Shown one piece after another: positions 43,134 through 59,427 of a stretch of DNA of 64,000 nucleotides. Origin of the DNA: Chloroflexaceae bacterium (GTDB lineage: Bacteria > Chloroflexota > Chloroflexia > Chloroflexales > Chloroflexaceae); contig JANQID010000119.1 of assembly GCA_028282325.1 (NCBI GenBank), positions 1 through 64,000 on the forward strand, given 5' to 3'. Position 1 is the first letter of the stretch, and each line of letters starts with the position of its first letter. A program made the position numbers and the translations under genes. The notes under the pieces are model-generated. The model was not told where the DNA came from. It ran no database searches and saw only the letters and a program-made list of their open reading frames with translations.

Positions 43134-44381
43134 TCAAGGCCGGTAGATTCGGGTCTCCGGCTTGAACGCGGCCCACGAGAACCAGAAATGGTTGATCGCA
43201 ACCACCGGCTCCAGTTGCGCGCCTGCCAGTGGCCCGTCGGTCGCCTCCCCCAGGTGATTCCACACGCTCCCGGTTTCGTCGTCCACGATCTGCGCGCCGT
43301 CGAACGCAAAGGTCAGCGCCTGACCGCCAACCTGGCGCGTGTAGGCGTTGGCCGAGCCGACATCGCGCCCCTCGGCGATCGCGGCAGCGTCGAGGGCGGA
43401 GGCGACGCCGGGCGCCCACAAAACGACCAGGTCAACACCGCCGACGCTGTCGTTGATCACGCGCATCTCCTCAAGCAGGGCGTAGGGGTAGGCGACCGCC
43501 GTCGCGCCCCGATCCACCGTCAACACGCGCGCCGTGGCCGGCAGGGCGTCGGGCGTGGTCGGGCCGCGATAGAGGAACGGCGACGAGTTCGCGTCATCGT
43601 AGCCGACATAGGGATTTTGCCCGTAGTTGCGCTGGAAGCCGGTTTCACGCGAAAGCGCCTGGCCATCCGGGTGCGCGGCCTTGAAGTCGCTCCAGGCGAT
43701 CAGCGCCGCCGGGTAGAAGGTCAGTTGCACGCCCGTGAGTTCGCCGGCGATCGCTTCGCCGGTCCCCTGTTGCCACCAGGTCTCGGTCTGGCGGTCGTAC
43801 ATAATCAAATTGCTGAAGCGCAAGCGCCCCGTTGTACCAAAGTCAAGCGTTATGCCATCGACGGTGCGCTCGAAGGCGATCGCCGTATTGCAGAGCGGGC
43901 AGAACGTAATGGTCAACGGCAGGCCGCCGACCGTGTCATTCACGATTTCGTGCCAGGTAAGAATCTGCAACGGGTAGGCGCGGACGTCAGCGCCGACTTG
44001 CACCAGCGCCACCGGTTCGCGCGGATCCAGCCACGCATCCGCTTCAGCGATGGAAACGAACTGCGGATCGTCGATGGGCGGAATGCCGTCTTTCGGCGGA
44101 CCGCCGCTGAGAATCTCGCTGTATGGAACGCTGTGCTTGCTAAAGTCGGTGCTGAACTGCGCCTCGGCGCCGGAAGGCGGCGGCTCTTCCGGCAGCAGCG
44201 TCACTTCGTCGCTCGGAGCGTTCGCACGGGCGGCGGGCGGGGAAGCCGTCATCTCTGGTGGCGGATCGACGAGCGTTTCGGCGGCAGAAGGGTCGGAGGA
44301 AGAAGAGGTGCCGCCGCACGCGGCGAGCAGAAGACTAAATACGAATATGCCAAACAACGGCGCTTTTGGTAATGGATGCAT
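43134..44381 (-). CDS. DUF3179 domain lipoprotein
   Basis: 415 residues. Lipoprotein signal PLFGIFVFSLLLAACGG (lipobox LAAC), AGGA SD. A Ser/Ala/Pro-rich linker, then the DUF3179 domain: IDDPQFVSIAEADAWLDPREPVALVQVG, LTWHEIVNDTVGGLPLTITFCPLCNTAIAFER, FGTTGRLRFSNLIMYDRQTETWWQQGTGEAI and SRETGFQRNYGQNPYVGYDD. CPLCN and the His in TWHEIVN are the conserved features of this family. The family function is unknown. It is followed leftward by the 113-bp element; it lies downstream of the transporter genes but with a 236-bp gap (44382-44617, empty). Confidence 0.88.
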   Translation of the reverse strand: MHPLPKAPLFGIFVFSLLLAACGGTSSSSDPSAAETLVDPPPEMTASPPAARANAPSDEVTLLPEEPPPSGAEAQFSTDFSKHSVPYSEILSGGPPKDGIPPIDDPQFVSIAEADAWLDPREPVALVQVGADVRAYPLQILTWHEIVNDTVGGLPLTITFCPLCNTAIAFERTVDGITLDFGTTGRLRFSNLIMYDRQTETWWQQGTGEAIAGELTGVQLTFYPAALIAWSDFKAAHPDGQALSRETGFQRNYGQNPYVGYDDANSSPFLYRGPTTPDALPATARVLTVDRGATAVAYPYALLEEMRVINDSVGGVDLVVLWAPGVASALDAAAIAEGRDVGSANAYTRQVGGQALTFAFDGAQIVDDETGSVWNHLGEATDGPLAGAQLEPVVAINHFWFSWAAFKPETRIYRP

Positions 44382-44617: not shown

Positions 44618-46285
44618 TTACGACATCCCCAGCATCCAGGCCCCGGCCCAACCGGCGAGCATCAAGAAGCCGAACTGCATATGCAACTGCGTGGTCTGCC
44701 GCAGCACCGGGTGCAATGCCTGCGGCTCGTAATCGCGGGCGACGCGGCGCATCAAACCCAGCGCCGTGGGCAACGTGATCGCGGCGATCAGCGTCGGCCA
44801 GGGAGCGACGCCGATCAGCGCCAGCAGCAGCAGCGAGAGGTACGCGCCGCCGACCAGCGCGTAGTATTCGATGTTTGCGCCGGCCCGACCGAGTAGCGTC
44901 GCCAGGGTGCGTTTGCCCTTCGCACGGTCGCTTTCCAGGTCGCGCAGGTTGTTCGCGTGTAAAGACGCCGCGATCAAGAAGCCGACTGGCAGCGAGGCGA
45001 AGATCACCGGCGCGGTTATGCTCTGCGTTTGCAGATAGTAGGAGCCGATCACCGTCAGCGGCCCCATAAAGAGGAAGACCGCTGTCTCGCCCAGGCCCGT
45101 GTAGGCGAGCGCGAACGGCCCGGCGGTGTAGAAGAAACCAACCAGCACGCCGATCACGCCCAGCCAGAGGATGAACGCGCCGCCGACGCTGACCAGGTAG
45201 AGGCCGATGATCGCGCCGACGGCGAATGCGACCAGACCGGCGATGAGCACCTGGCGCGGTTGCAGTTCGCCGCGCAGCAGCACGTTGCGCCCGATGAACG
45301 ACTGCGGCGTATCGATGCCGCGGGTGTAATCGAAGTAGTCGTTGGTCAGGTTGGCGCCGGCCTGGATCGCGATCGCACCGAGCAGCGCGAGCGTCAGCAG
45401 CAAGGGGTGGAAGTGGCCTTCGGCGCCGGCGATGATCGCGCCCAACGCAACCGGGATGATCGCCGCCGTGTAGCTGTGCGGTCGCAGCGCCCCCCACCAG
45501 GTCTGGATAAACTGGCGCGCGTCGTCGTTGGCGGCGCGGACGAATTGCCAGGGCACCAGCAGCCGCTCGATCTCATCGAGCAACACGGTGATCGCCCAGC
45601 CGACCAGCGCCACGGCCACCAGTCCGGCGATCATGCTGTCAATCGCATACAGCTCGTAGGCGCGCCAGATCAGGTGGCCGACGCCGTCGTTCGAGCCGAC
45701 AAACTCGACGCCGACGATCAGCGTCAGCGCGAAGCCCATGCCTAGCTTGACGCTGGTGATAATGCCCGGCATGCTCGCCGGCAGCGCCACCGTGCGAAAC
45801 AGATCGATGCGCCGGGCGCCGAAACTCTGGGCCACCTCGAAGTAGCGGGCGTCTACCTGCAACACGCTCGCGGCGACATTCAGGACAATCATAAAAAACA
45901 CGCTCAGGGCGATGGTCGCGATCTTGCTCGCCTCGCCCAGCCCCAGCACAACGATAACAAGCGGCAGCAACGCGATCTTGGGGATCGGATAGATCGCCGC
46001 GGCCAGCGGTTGGACGAGCGCGCGCACCACCGGGCTGATGCCCATCAGCAGGCCGATGACAATCGCCGGAACGCCGCCGATCACCATGCCGACGAAGACG
46101 CGCATCACGCTGAGTCCGACATCGCGCGGCAGTTGGCCGTCGGCGATCATCGCGCCGAAGGTAATGAACACCTCCGAGGGCGGCGGGTAGAAGATCCGGT
46201 TGAGCCAGCCGACCTGCACCGCCAGTTCCCAGAGCGTCAGCAGCAGAAACGGCGAGAGAAATGAAAGCCAGCGGTTGCGGATCAT
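44618..46285 (-). CDS. Fusion: ABC importer permease + MenA/UbiA-type prenyltransferase
   Basis: 555 residues in one open frame. Residues 1-~245 are an SsuC/TauC-type permease: PPPSEVFITFG, PIPKIALLPLVIVVLGLGEASKI and the EAA-loop VAQSFGARRIDLFRTVALPASMPGI. After a ~20-residue linker (PWQFVRAANDDARQFIQ), residues ~265-555 match MenA: WWGALRPHSYTAAIIPVALG, GANLTNDYFDYTRGID (first Asp-rich motif) and NNLRDLESDRAKGKRTLATLLG (second). The ATG overlaps the upstream ATPase stop (ATGA). A run of six C at 45491-45496 lies by the junction, so a sequencing frameshift joining two genes cannot be excluded. Confidence 0.85.
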   Translation of the reverse strand: MIRNRWLSFLSPFLLLTLWELAVQVGWLNRIFYPPPSEVFITFGAMIADGQLPRDVGLSVMRVFVGMVIGGVPAIVIGLLMGISPVVRALVQPLAAAIYPIPKIALLPLVIVVLGLGEASKIATIALSVFFMIVLNVAASVLQVDARYFEVAQSFGARRIDLFRTVALPASMPGIITSVKLGMGFALTLIVGVEFVGSNDGVGHLIWRAYELYAIDSMIAGLVAVALVGWAITVLLDEIERLLVPWQFVRAANDDARQFIQTWWGALRPHSYTAAIIPVALGAIIAGAEGHFHPLLLTLALLGAIAIQAGANLTNDYFDYTRGIDTPQSFIGRNVLLRGELQPRQVLIAGLVAFAVGAIIGLYLVSVGGAFILWLGVIGVLVGFFYTAGPFALAYTGLGETAVFLFMGPLTVIGSYYLQTQSITAPVIFASLPVGFLIAASLHANNLRDLESDRAKGKRTLATLLGRAGANIEYYALVGGAYLSLLLLALIGVAPWPTLIAAITLPTALGLMRRVARDYEPQALHPVLRQTTQLHMQFGFLMLAGWAGAWMLGMS

Positions 46286-47088
46286 GCCGTCGCTCCCAGT
46301 TCAGCAGCGCGGGCGCGCTCGACTTCGTCGCGCAACACCGACCAGATTTCGGCGAACATCGCACTGAAGCGCGGATCGCTGCGCAGGGCAATGGCGTCGC
46401 GCGGACGCGCGAAGGGTGCGCGGAATTCGTGGATCAGACGCCCCGGTCGCGCCGACATCACCAGCACGCGGTCGCCGAGCGTCAACGCCTCTTCGATGCT
46501 GTGGGTGACAAACACCACTGTTTTCGCCTCGCGATCCCACTGGCGCAGCAGCGTCTGCTGGAGGATCAGGCGCGTCTGCGCATCGAGCGCGCCGAAGGGT
46601 TCGTCCATCAGCAGTACCTGCGGATTGTAGGCGAAGGCGCGGGCGAGACCGACGCGTTGCTGCATGCCGCCGGAGAGTTGAGCTGGGTAGGCGTTGGCGA
46701 AGCGATCAAGCCCCATCTCGCCGATCCAGCGACGCGCGATCTCTATGCGCTCGGCCGGCGGCATCCCGCGCAGACGCAGGCCATAGGCGACATTCTGCTC
46801 GACCGTCATCCAGGGAAAGATGCCGGCGCCCTGGAAAACCATCGCTTTTACCGGGCGCGCCGGGTCGCTGTCGGTGATAACGACCCGTCCGTCGGTAAGC
46901 TGTTCGAGGTCGGCGAGCACGCGCAACAGCGTGGTTTTGCCACAGCCGCTCGGCCCGACAATGCAGACCAATTCGCCGTCGGCGACGTTGCACGACACGC
47001 CGCCGAGCGCCTCGACCGGGCCGGCGCCGCGAGCGCCGGGGTAGACGACGCGGGCGTGATCAATCGTTATCTTGGGAAGCCTGGACAT
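46282..47088 (-). CDS. SsuB/TauB-type ABC transporter ATPase
   Basis: 268 residues. Walker A GPSGCGKTTLLRVLA, Q-loop VFQGAGIFPW, signature LSGGMQQRVGLARAFA, Walker B VLLMDEPFGALDAQTR, His-switch VTHSIEEAL. It belongs to the nitrate/sulfonate/taurine/pyrimidine-precursor subfamily. Overlaps the permease-prenyltransferase start by 4 bp, so translationally coupled. The binding-protein gene lies 173 bp upstream. The solute is unknown. Confidence 0.93.
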   Translation of the reverse strand: MSRLPKITIDHARVVYPGARGAGPVEALGGVSCNVADGELVCIVGPSGCGKTTLLRVLADLEQLTDGRVVITDSDPARPVKAMVFQGAGIFPWMTVEQNVAYGLRLRGMPPAERIEIARRWIGEMGLDRFANAYPAQLSGGMQQRVGLARAFAYNPQVLLMDEPFGALDAQTRLILQQTLLRQWDREAKTVVFVTHSIEEALTLGDRVLVMSARPGRLIHEFRAPFARPRDAIALRSDPRFSAMFAEIWSVLRDEVERARAAELGATA

Positions 47089-47261
47089 AGAGAGAGCAAA
47101 CTAAGGTATAGATAATCGAGGACTGCCAGTCCTACAGCCACATTGTACGACCTCGAACTGTTTCATAGATTTGCCGCGATGCAATACCAAGGCGCGGAGA
47201 CGATCATCGGCGATGATCGTCTCCGCAATTGAGCCGGAACACGACACTTTGCGCTGCTACA

Positions 47262-48335
47262 CTATTCCGCGTCCAGCTCGGCGGCAACCTCCTCCGCCAG
47301 ACTGGTATCAACGAACGTGGTGATGTCGAGCAGTTCGTCATACTCAAGAAAGCCACGGCGCTGGAAAAACGCCTGCAACGTCTCCAGATCCTGCACCGGC
47401 ACGATGCCATCGGCGCTGAACTGCGAGACCGTGCTGCGTTCGACCATTGCGGCGGGGACGTTGGTATACTTCTCCACCATCGCGGCGATCTCCGGCGTCA
47501 TATAGTCGCCCTGCAAGTCACGACTGGCGCGCAGGTAGGCGCGCATAAATTTGCGGGCCAACTCGGGGTTCTGGTCGAGCCAGTCCTGATTCATCACGAT
47601 GAAGGTCGCCGTGAAGCCGTTGATGAAATCATCGGCGAGAATGCTGATCAGCTCCTGATTCCGGTTAATCGTCACCAGCGGCTCGGTGATCAACGCCGCA
47701 TCGATCGATCCGCTCTCCAGTGCGGCGGCCATATCGGGGAAGGGCAAAGCCACAACCTCAACTTCCTCGATGCTCACGCCGCCCTGGGCCAGCGCCTGGT
47801 CGAGCCAATACTCGATGGCGGCGCCGTTGCCGTTGACGGCGATGCGCTTGCCGCGCAGATCGGCGATGCTCGTCAGCTCGTCGGCGCGTCCGGCGCTGAT
47901 CACCAGCGGCGTGGCCAGCGGCGGCTTCTCGCTGTGCATCGGGGCGACAATCTTGAATTGCAGGCCGCGTTCAATGCCGTTGAACAGCCCGGCATTGCCG
48001 CCGGCCCCGGCCACGTCGAAGTTTCCGGCGGCGAGTTGCACGACAGCGTCGTTGGTGCTCTGCACCGTGTTCATCTCCAGCTCCAGACCCTCTTCGGCGA
48101 AATAGCCGCTTTCGATACCGACATAAATCGGCGCGAAGATGATCACCGGCACGTATCCCATACGAATGGTTGTGAGTTCAGCCGCTTCGGTCGTCGGCGT
48201 CGAAGCCTCGGTTGCGGACGCGGCGGATTCGTCCGTCGGCGCGGCGGGCGTTTGCGGCTGCAGGCCGCCGCACGCTGCCAGCGCGACCAGCGCCCATACC
48301 AGAGCGATGATTCCAGCGAGTTTGTGTCGTGACAT
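47262..48335 (-). CDS. SsuA/THI5-type substrate-binding lipoprotein
   Basis: 357 residues from ATG 48335 (AGGAG about 12 nt upstream). Lipoprotein signal GIIALVWALVALAACGG. Mature part: RMGYVPVIIFAPIYVGIESGYFAEEGLELEMN and NDAVVQLAAGNFDVAGAGGN, LRGKRIAVNGNGAAIEYWLDQAL and GSIDAALITEPL are the NMT1/SsuA-like signatures. This fold binds sulfonates, nitrate, thiamine precursors and, in related MqnA/MqnD enzymes, menaquinone-pathway intermediates. It is the first gene of the transporter set. The MITE-like element at 48369 sits just upstream. Confidence 0.9.
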   Translation of the reverse strand: MSRHKLAGIIALVWALVALAACGGLQPQTPAAPTDESAASATEASTPTTEAAELTTIRMGYVPVIIFAPIYVGIESGYFAEEGLELEMNTVQSTNDAVVQLAAGNFDVAGAGGNAGLFNGIERGLQFKIVAPMHSEKPPLATPLVISAGRADELTSIADLRGKRIAVNGNGAAIEYWLDQALAQGGVSIEEVEVVALPFPDMAAALESGSIDAALITEPLVTINRNQELISILADDFINGFTATFIVMNQDWLDQNPELARKFMRAYLRASRDLQGDYMTPEIAAMVEKYTNVPAAMVERSTVSQFSADGIVPVQDLETLQAFFQRRGFLEYDELLDITTFVDTSLAEEVAAELDAE

Positions 48336-59070: not shown

Positions 59071-59398
59071 AAAAAACTCTCGATCCAACATTGGATCGAG
59101 AGACGAAAACAATTCGCGGTGCCACTCTCGTTCGTCGGCGCTTACATCCGACGCACTCTGCGAGCGCCGTTACTTCTGGCAAGCGATAACACAAACCAGG
59201 AGCATTCGAAGCTCAGCGCCCTGATAACGGCGGCGTTCCCGGCGACTACTACACGATTTTACATATTGGCTGCCCGACAGCCATCTCAAATCGTTTCGCT
59301 CCGCAACTCCCAGGCCCATTCCGCACCTGTGCTTGCATCGGTCTCACACCTTCCGCCGACTCTCTGAGCAGCACCGCTGGCGCGTACTTTTCCTGTTC
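59071..59398 (-). ncRNA. T-box riboswitch (tryptophan type) upstream of trpB2
   Basis: On the minus strand, in order: AGAGAG (59360-59365) of stem I, a Gly-rich stem with TGG candidates for the specifier near 59310-59318, the T-box core GAGTGGCACCGCGAATTG (core plus-strand 59115-59125), and a terminator CTCTCGATCCAA/TTGGATCGAGAG (59077-59102) followed by TTTTTT. The antiterminator bulge TGGC pairs with a GCCA end, matching the G73 discriminator of bacterial tRNA-Trp. Uncharged tRNA-Trp is expected to turn on trpB2. Confidence 0.9.
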
Positions 59399-59427
59399 AT
59401 TGTTGTTGAGATTATGAAATTAGCGAG

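Follow-up and report, generated by a model that had tools for sequence, protein, structure and literature searches.

The DNA stretch analyzed in this study (the window) comprises the first 64,000 nucleotides of contig JANQID010000119.1 from the Chloroflexaceae bacterium assembly GCA_028282325.1. We consider here a three-gene unit on its minus strand, in which the gene of a substrate-binding lipoprotein is followed by an ATPase gene and then by a gene that joins the permease of an ATP-binding cassette (ABC) importer to a MenA-type prenyltransferase. The lipoprotein (47262-48335, 357 aa) is of the NMT1/THI5-SsuA type (PF09084, 100 bits) and has the lipobox LAAC. The ATPase (46282-47088, 268 aa; PF00005, 102 bits), with the Walker A motif GPSGCGKTT, the signature LSGGMQQR, and the Walker B motif LLMDEP, overlaps the start of the fusion gene by 4 bp; both this overlap and the upstream THI5/SsuA-type gene agree with the initial annotation of the locus. 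The fusion gene runs in one open frame from the ATG at 46285 to the stop at 44618 and encodes 555 aa. Judging by the NMT1/SsuA-type binding protein, the EAA-loop permease, and the Walker and signature motifs of the ATPase, the operon is predicted to encode a type I ABC importer of the SsuABC/NrtABC superfamily.

The permease half of the fusion protein (residues 1-248; 45542-46285) is of the SsuC/NrtB/CmpB type, with the Pfam domain BPD_transp_1 (PF00528) spanning residues 74-246 at 85 bits (cut-off 26). Its EAA-type loop, EVAQSFGARRIDLFRTVALP (residues 150-169; 45779-45838), which from knowledge of the family we take to be the coupling loop, has G156, A157, T165-A167, and P169 invariant in 28 fusions. 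In the AlphaFold2 model of the whole protein (mean confidence score, pLDDT, 84.3), both halves match solved folds, the closest solved permease being NrtB/CmpB (Z about 24-25). An interdomain linker, whose length varies in the alignment of relatives, occupies residues 249-262 (45500-45541).

The prenyltransferase half (residues 263-555; 44621-45499) contains the Pfam domain UbiA at residues 276-523 (134 bits, cut-off 34) and scores 160 bits with the menA model TIGR00751, exceeding its curated cut-off of 102.15. The modeled residues 256-555 superimpose on human UBIAD1 (8djk) with Z 27.3 and a root-mean-square deviation of 3.1 over 270 aligned residues. Both Asp-rich motifs expected from the initial annotation are found: NDYFDYTRGID at residues 315-325 (45311-45343), with N315, Y317, D319, G323, and D325 invariant in the 28 fusions, and NNLRDLESD at residues 445-453 (44927-44953), with N445, N446, R448, D449, and D453 invariant.

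Since a run of six C lies close to the junction, the fusion might in principle be a sequencing or annotation artefact, two genes having been joined through an indel in this run, as had once been suspected. The run is present, at 45490-45495, one position from the place first given for it (45491-45496). However, 34 other genomes read uninterrupted through the same place in one frame and the adjoining residues W263, R268, and S271 are invariant in the 28 fusions, which excludes the indel and leaves an artefact with a negligible probability. Pairwise ratios of nonsynonymous to synonymous substitutions are 0.02-0.16 in the permease half and in the prenyltransferase half, indicating purifying selection on both. 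The fusion is real, and the reading of the locus as a permease and a complete MenA-type enzyme in a single 555-residue frame holds.

A pattern scan of genome contigs detected only two stand-alone relatives of MenA, and the fusion was therefore surveyed by whole-genome searches. Together with the window's genome, the fused architecture is present in 35 genomes from two classes of Chloroflexota, with 38-70% identity to the window protein. The identity is 55-70% in families f1, f2, and f4, 42-44% in f11, 38-39% in f14, and 49-51% in f35, which belongs to the other class; in f10 both domains are likewise encoded in one frame. In nine f14 genomes, the permease and the prenyltransferase are separate adjacent genes. 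On quick trees of the permease and of the prenyltransferase, the fused state switches at least six times, and the fused trio of f14 (G132, G143, and G144) is nested among adjacent pairs. These patterns suggest that the two genes were probably fused on more than one occasion, or that a fusion was later undone. Further, in two f39 genomes, G244 (L172:7388-9386) and G216 (L161:396-2394), a prenyltransferase of the linked type is encoded directly beside an ortholog of the binding protein, and the permease is missing from between the two. The repeated linkage in different arrangements, permease with enzyme and binding protein with enzyme, argues for shared work of the predicted importer and the prenyltransferase on one substrate.

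Two sets of candidates were discarded in this comparison. The f13 permeases, 38-43% identical and found in genomes with complete Men routes, were set aside as counter-examples, as they form a separate clade (support 99) and their binding proteins score only about 80-110 bits with that of the window. G134 was dropped from the linked genomes: a cluster of out-of-frame open reading frames had been misleading, and there is no prenyltransferase beside its permease. In G043 (L042:5185-6353), the binding protein matches as two pieces in different frames, which may point to a frameshift in this draft assembly. The f14 operon (L096:4921-11024, L098:4161-8675, L099, and L100) runs on into a gene of a calcineurin-like phosphoesterase with a start resembling a twin-arginine translocation signal, and it often follows rseP and the isoprenoid pathway gene ispG; some f14 genomes retain the phosphoesterase and not the prenyltransferase.

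Menaquinone pathway markers were scored in 158 genomes of the class (MenB by TIGR01929, MqnA/D by PF02621 above 150 bits, and the complex I subunit NuoH by PF00146), MenD and MqnC being scored in 64 of these. Of the 41 genomes in which the genes are fused or adjacent, 36 gave no marker of de novo synthesis (MenB/MenD or MqnA/D). Among the 117 others, a marker is present in 82 and absent from 35 (Fisher p = 7e-11). The association holds at the genus level (p = 4e-5) and upon stratification by family (chi2 = 8.6), these two figures still counting G134 as linked, which the genome-level test does not. Linkage differs within eight independent pairs on a NuoH tree whose 40 genomes were picked by hand; a mean of 5.8 agree, the linked side being the one without markers, and none oppose (p about 0.03). 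Complex I, which NuoH indicates in every one of the 93 genomes of good quality in this class, is retained in 36 of the 41 linked genomes, and MenG/UbiE exceeds its cut-off in 28 of the 40 linked genomes tested. Similarly, in the other class, MenG is present and MenB absent in the three genomes with the fusion, which are 95-99% complete. Thus the carriers fit the pattern of quinone-precursor salvage, with de novo head-group genes absent and MenG and complex I kept, and most of them apparently cannot synthesize menaquinone de novo. For genomes with menA and menG only, Ravcheev and Thiele predicted import of 1,4-dihydroxy-2-naphthoate (DHNA) by transport genes that "remain to be annotated" (PMC4746308).

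The same association could be produced if the carriers used a divergent or novel menaquinone route, the missing genes reflecting limits of the searches or incomplete genomes and the transporter having a minor role. Absence was indeed called from profile searches of mostly draft genomes, with MenF, MenC, MenE, and MenI outside the cross-genome marker set. On the other hand, MenB exceeded its cut-off in exactly those control genomes where it was expected, with a clean score gap, and both routes are missing from genomes of 95-99% completeness and repeatedly in several families, which makes this explanation very improbable. Matches to MqnC in G046, G098, G096, and g57 are under the cut-off and were rejected, since they look like CofG/CofH (FbiC-like) paralogs.

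The AlphaFold2 model of the binding protein (pLDDT 89.8) is closest to CmpA/NrtA (Z 30-31), and its fold is common to CmpA/NrtA, SsuA, TauA, THI5, thiamine binders, and the pyrroloquinoline quinone binding protein PqqT, so that the fold does not fix the ligand. The earlier remark that MqnA and MqnD of quinone biosynthesis share this fold is right but unspecific, as CmpA/NrtA, SsuA, TauA, THI5, and PqqT match better. All substrate-named permease models stay under their cut-offs (SaoP 129/295 bits, SsuC 121/347, TauC 117/342, and ntrB 76/209).

It could be suggested that the operon serves uptake of a vitamin or sulfonate (of the taurine, aliphatic sulfonate, thiamine pyrimidine, or riboflavin type), and that the fusion with MenA reflects co-location or co-regulation and no shared substrate. 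The highest-scoring named permease and ATPase models are those for sulfonate and taurine, the fold of the binding protein admits such ligands, and flavin importers of the RibXY type occur in Chloroflexi. But the permease scores are far under the named cut-offs, the linkage occurs in several arrangements, one with the binding protein beside the prenyltransferase, and it tracks the missing menaquinone routes. Neither did the Rfam scan of the window reveal a vitamin riboswitch, of the FMN or TPP kind, near the operon, although this absence is compatible with such a substrate. We regard this possibility as quite unlikely.

Additional indications come from plasmid-borne relatives of the transporter. 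For instance, the set of Aromatoleum aromaticum (permease 45% and binding protein 31% identical) is flanked by the UbiX and UbiD decarboxylases, relatives in Rhodococcus fascians and on an Arthrobacter plasmid have Rieske dioxygenase genes nearby, and those on two plasmids of Thermus thermophilus are accompanied by catechol 2,3-dioxygenase, in one case together with a ring-hydroxylating dioxygenase and 4-hydroxybenzoate hydroxylase. No aromatic genes were observed in the examined loci of Nitratireductor, Pseudonocardia, and Chlorohelix. These neighborhoods, which have no background control, point to aromatic carboxylates.

Taking these data together, we suggest that the operon encodes a salvage importer for DHNA or a close hydroxynaphthoate, which would be prenylated on entry by the MenA-type domain of the membrane subunit; we assign this reading a probability of roughly two in three. 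The lipoprotein would capture the aromatic acid outside the cell, and, as inferred from the family, two permease domains and two ATPases would drive its passage at the cost of ATP. The acid would be released at the cytoplasmic side, next to the prenyltransferase domain, whose motif residues are intact and which could carry out the decarboxylating condensation with polyprenyl diphosphate, trapping the product in the membrane. MenG, where its gene is detected, would then methylate the prenylated product to menaquinone. The C-terminus of a type I permease is cytoplasmic. In UbiA-family enzymes the N-terminus and the Asp motifs are cytoplasmic (PMC4106721). A short cytoplasmic linker can therefore join the two halves.

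Several observations weigh against this reading. The window's genome itself has a menF-D-H-B-E cluster (contig C16) and a canonical MenA (contig C73), so that there an importer would add to the cell's own synthesis and not replace it. In some clade members (G134, G152, and G154-G156), no prenyltransferase is linked to the transporter. In G065 (L086:5489-8091), the permease and the binding protein are 73% and 70% identical to those of the window, no prenyltransferase is fused or adjacent, and the genome has the full Men route with a canonical MenA. Finally, on a quick tree the linked prenyltransferases branch apart from 36 rows of canonical MenA, defined for Chloroflexota as encoded beside menB or menG (approximate likelihood ratio support, SH-aLRT, 100), and several f11 and f14 carriers have, in addition, a separate menA beside menG. 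The idea of the initial annotation, salvage of a naphthoate-type precursor prenylated as it enters, thus gains from the recurrence of the fusion, from the absence of known routes in carriers that keep complex I and MenG, and from the menA score, but salvage is not obligatory in the genome where it was proposed, since the search for further menaquinone genes and a second menA turned up both.

The separate branch and the extra menA genes in f11 and f14 make a different acceptor conceivable: another aromatic acid, such as a substituted hydroxybenzoate or a homogentisate-like compound, might be imported and prenylated by the MenA-like domain to yield another quinone or lipid. The transporter relatives indicate aromatic carboxylates in general, and one MenG homolog of genus g21 also matches the model of the methyl-plastoquinone methyltransferase MpqE, under its cut-off. 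Opposed to this are the score of the domain above the menA cut-off and the lack of any other protein close to MenA in many carriers, including nine g21 genomes, G009, G014, G025, G040, and G068; the g21 genomes also carry a more distant UbiA paralog, which is under the MenA cut-off. Further, G037, which has MenD and MenB and no linked permease, contains an unfused ortholog of the domain (187 bits with the menA model, 62% identity), and a second MenA-like protein tested in that genome does not reach the cut-off. As no further MenA-grade enzyme was found in G037, we infer that this MenA lineage can probably work on DHNA. The absence of DHNA synthesis from carriers is also the pattern that a supply of DHNA would predict. 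Altogether, we consider a different aromatic acid unlikely.

The operon combines known families in a new way. It resembles the SsuABC, TauABC, and NrtABCD-CmpABCD importers in the families and folds of its binding protein, permease, and ATPase, and differs from them in that its permease reaches no named substrate cut-off and carries a prenyltransferase; to our knowledge, no importer of these groups does so. The prenyltransferase shares the menA cut-off, both Asp motifs, and the UBIAD1 fold with MenA (DHNA polyprenyltransferase) and human UBIAD1; unlike these, it is fused to or encoded beside an importer, and it does not group with the MenA of men clusters in Chloroflexota. PqqT belongs to the same superfamily as the binding protein (Z 23) and has a polycyclic quinone ligand, but the identity is about 17% and PqqT binds a finished cofactor; we know of no prenyltransferase linked to it. 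In the literature searched, neither a permease-MenA fusion nor a DHNA importer came up.

Quinone auxotrophs with menA and menG only, Lactobacillus and other gut bacteria among them, use exogenous DHNA, which has been proposed as a shared precursor (PMC4746308, PMC5738691). As in the Chloroflexota carriers, the late steps are kept and the early steps are missing, but no importer was known there, whereas in the Chloroflexota carriers a predicted importer is joined to the prenyltransferase. Quinone cross-feeding has been documented in several communities, and importers of soluble menaquinone precursors were unannotated or undescribed in papers of 2016 and 2017, with none since in the literature searched. 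The operon offers a concrete importer candidate, with a testable ligand, for the standing question of DHNA-type import. It would be an unusual form of transport-coupled biosynthesis for an importer to carry, within one of its subunits, the enzyme that acts on its cargo.

Genes of (bacterio)chlorophyll-synthase-type UbiA proteins occur in the window's genome (three: L004, L005, and L006) and in genus g21 (one: L223, G039). Some carriers therefore seem to be phototrophs, among them g21 genomes that lack any known menaquinone route. It would follow from the DHNA salvage reading that many Chloroflexota, those g21-type genomes among them, depend on their neighbors for the head group of the respiratory quinone. 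The boldest form of this proposal is a membrane complex that directly couples ATP-driven head-group uptake to inner-face prenylation, representing the first DHNA-type importer and sustaining lineages, some with chlorophyll-synthase genes, on borrowed head groups; we put it forward tentatively, with a probability of roughly one in three.

Some features of the surroundings are of separate interest. A DUF3179 protein with a lipoprotein-like start is encoded about 240 bp past the fusion gene (43134-44381, minus strand) and is not kept beside the operon in relatives. The only Rfam match of the window is a T-box leader (59096-59409, minus strand; 96.5 bits, gathering score 93). The men cluster of the window's genome is adjoined by a gene of a CRISPR-associated CARF protein (TIGR02710; L206:909-2300, contig C16). 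On a plasmid of Candidatus Chlorohelix allophototropha (L283), the neighbors of a related transporter include a radical SAM gene as well as nifH and two component-1 genes, which are nitrogenase-like.

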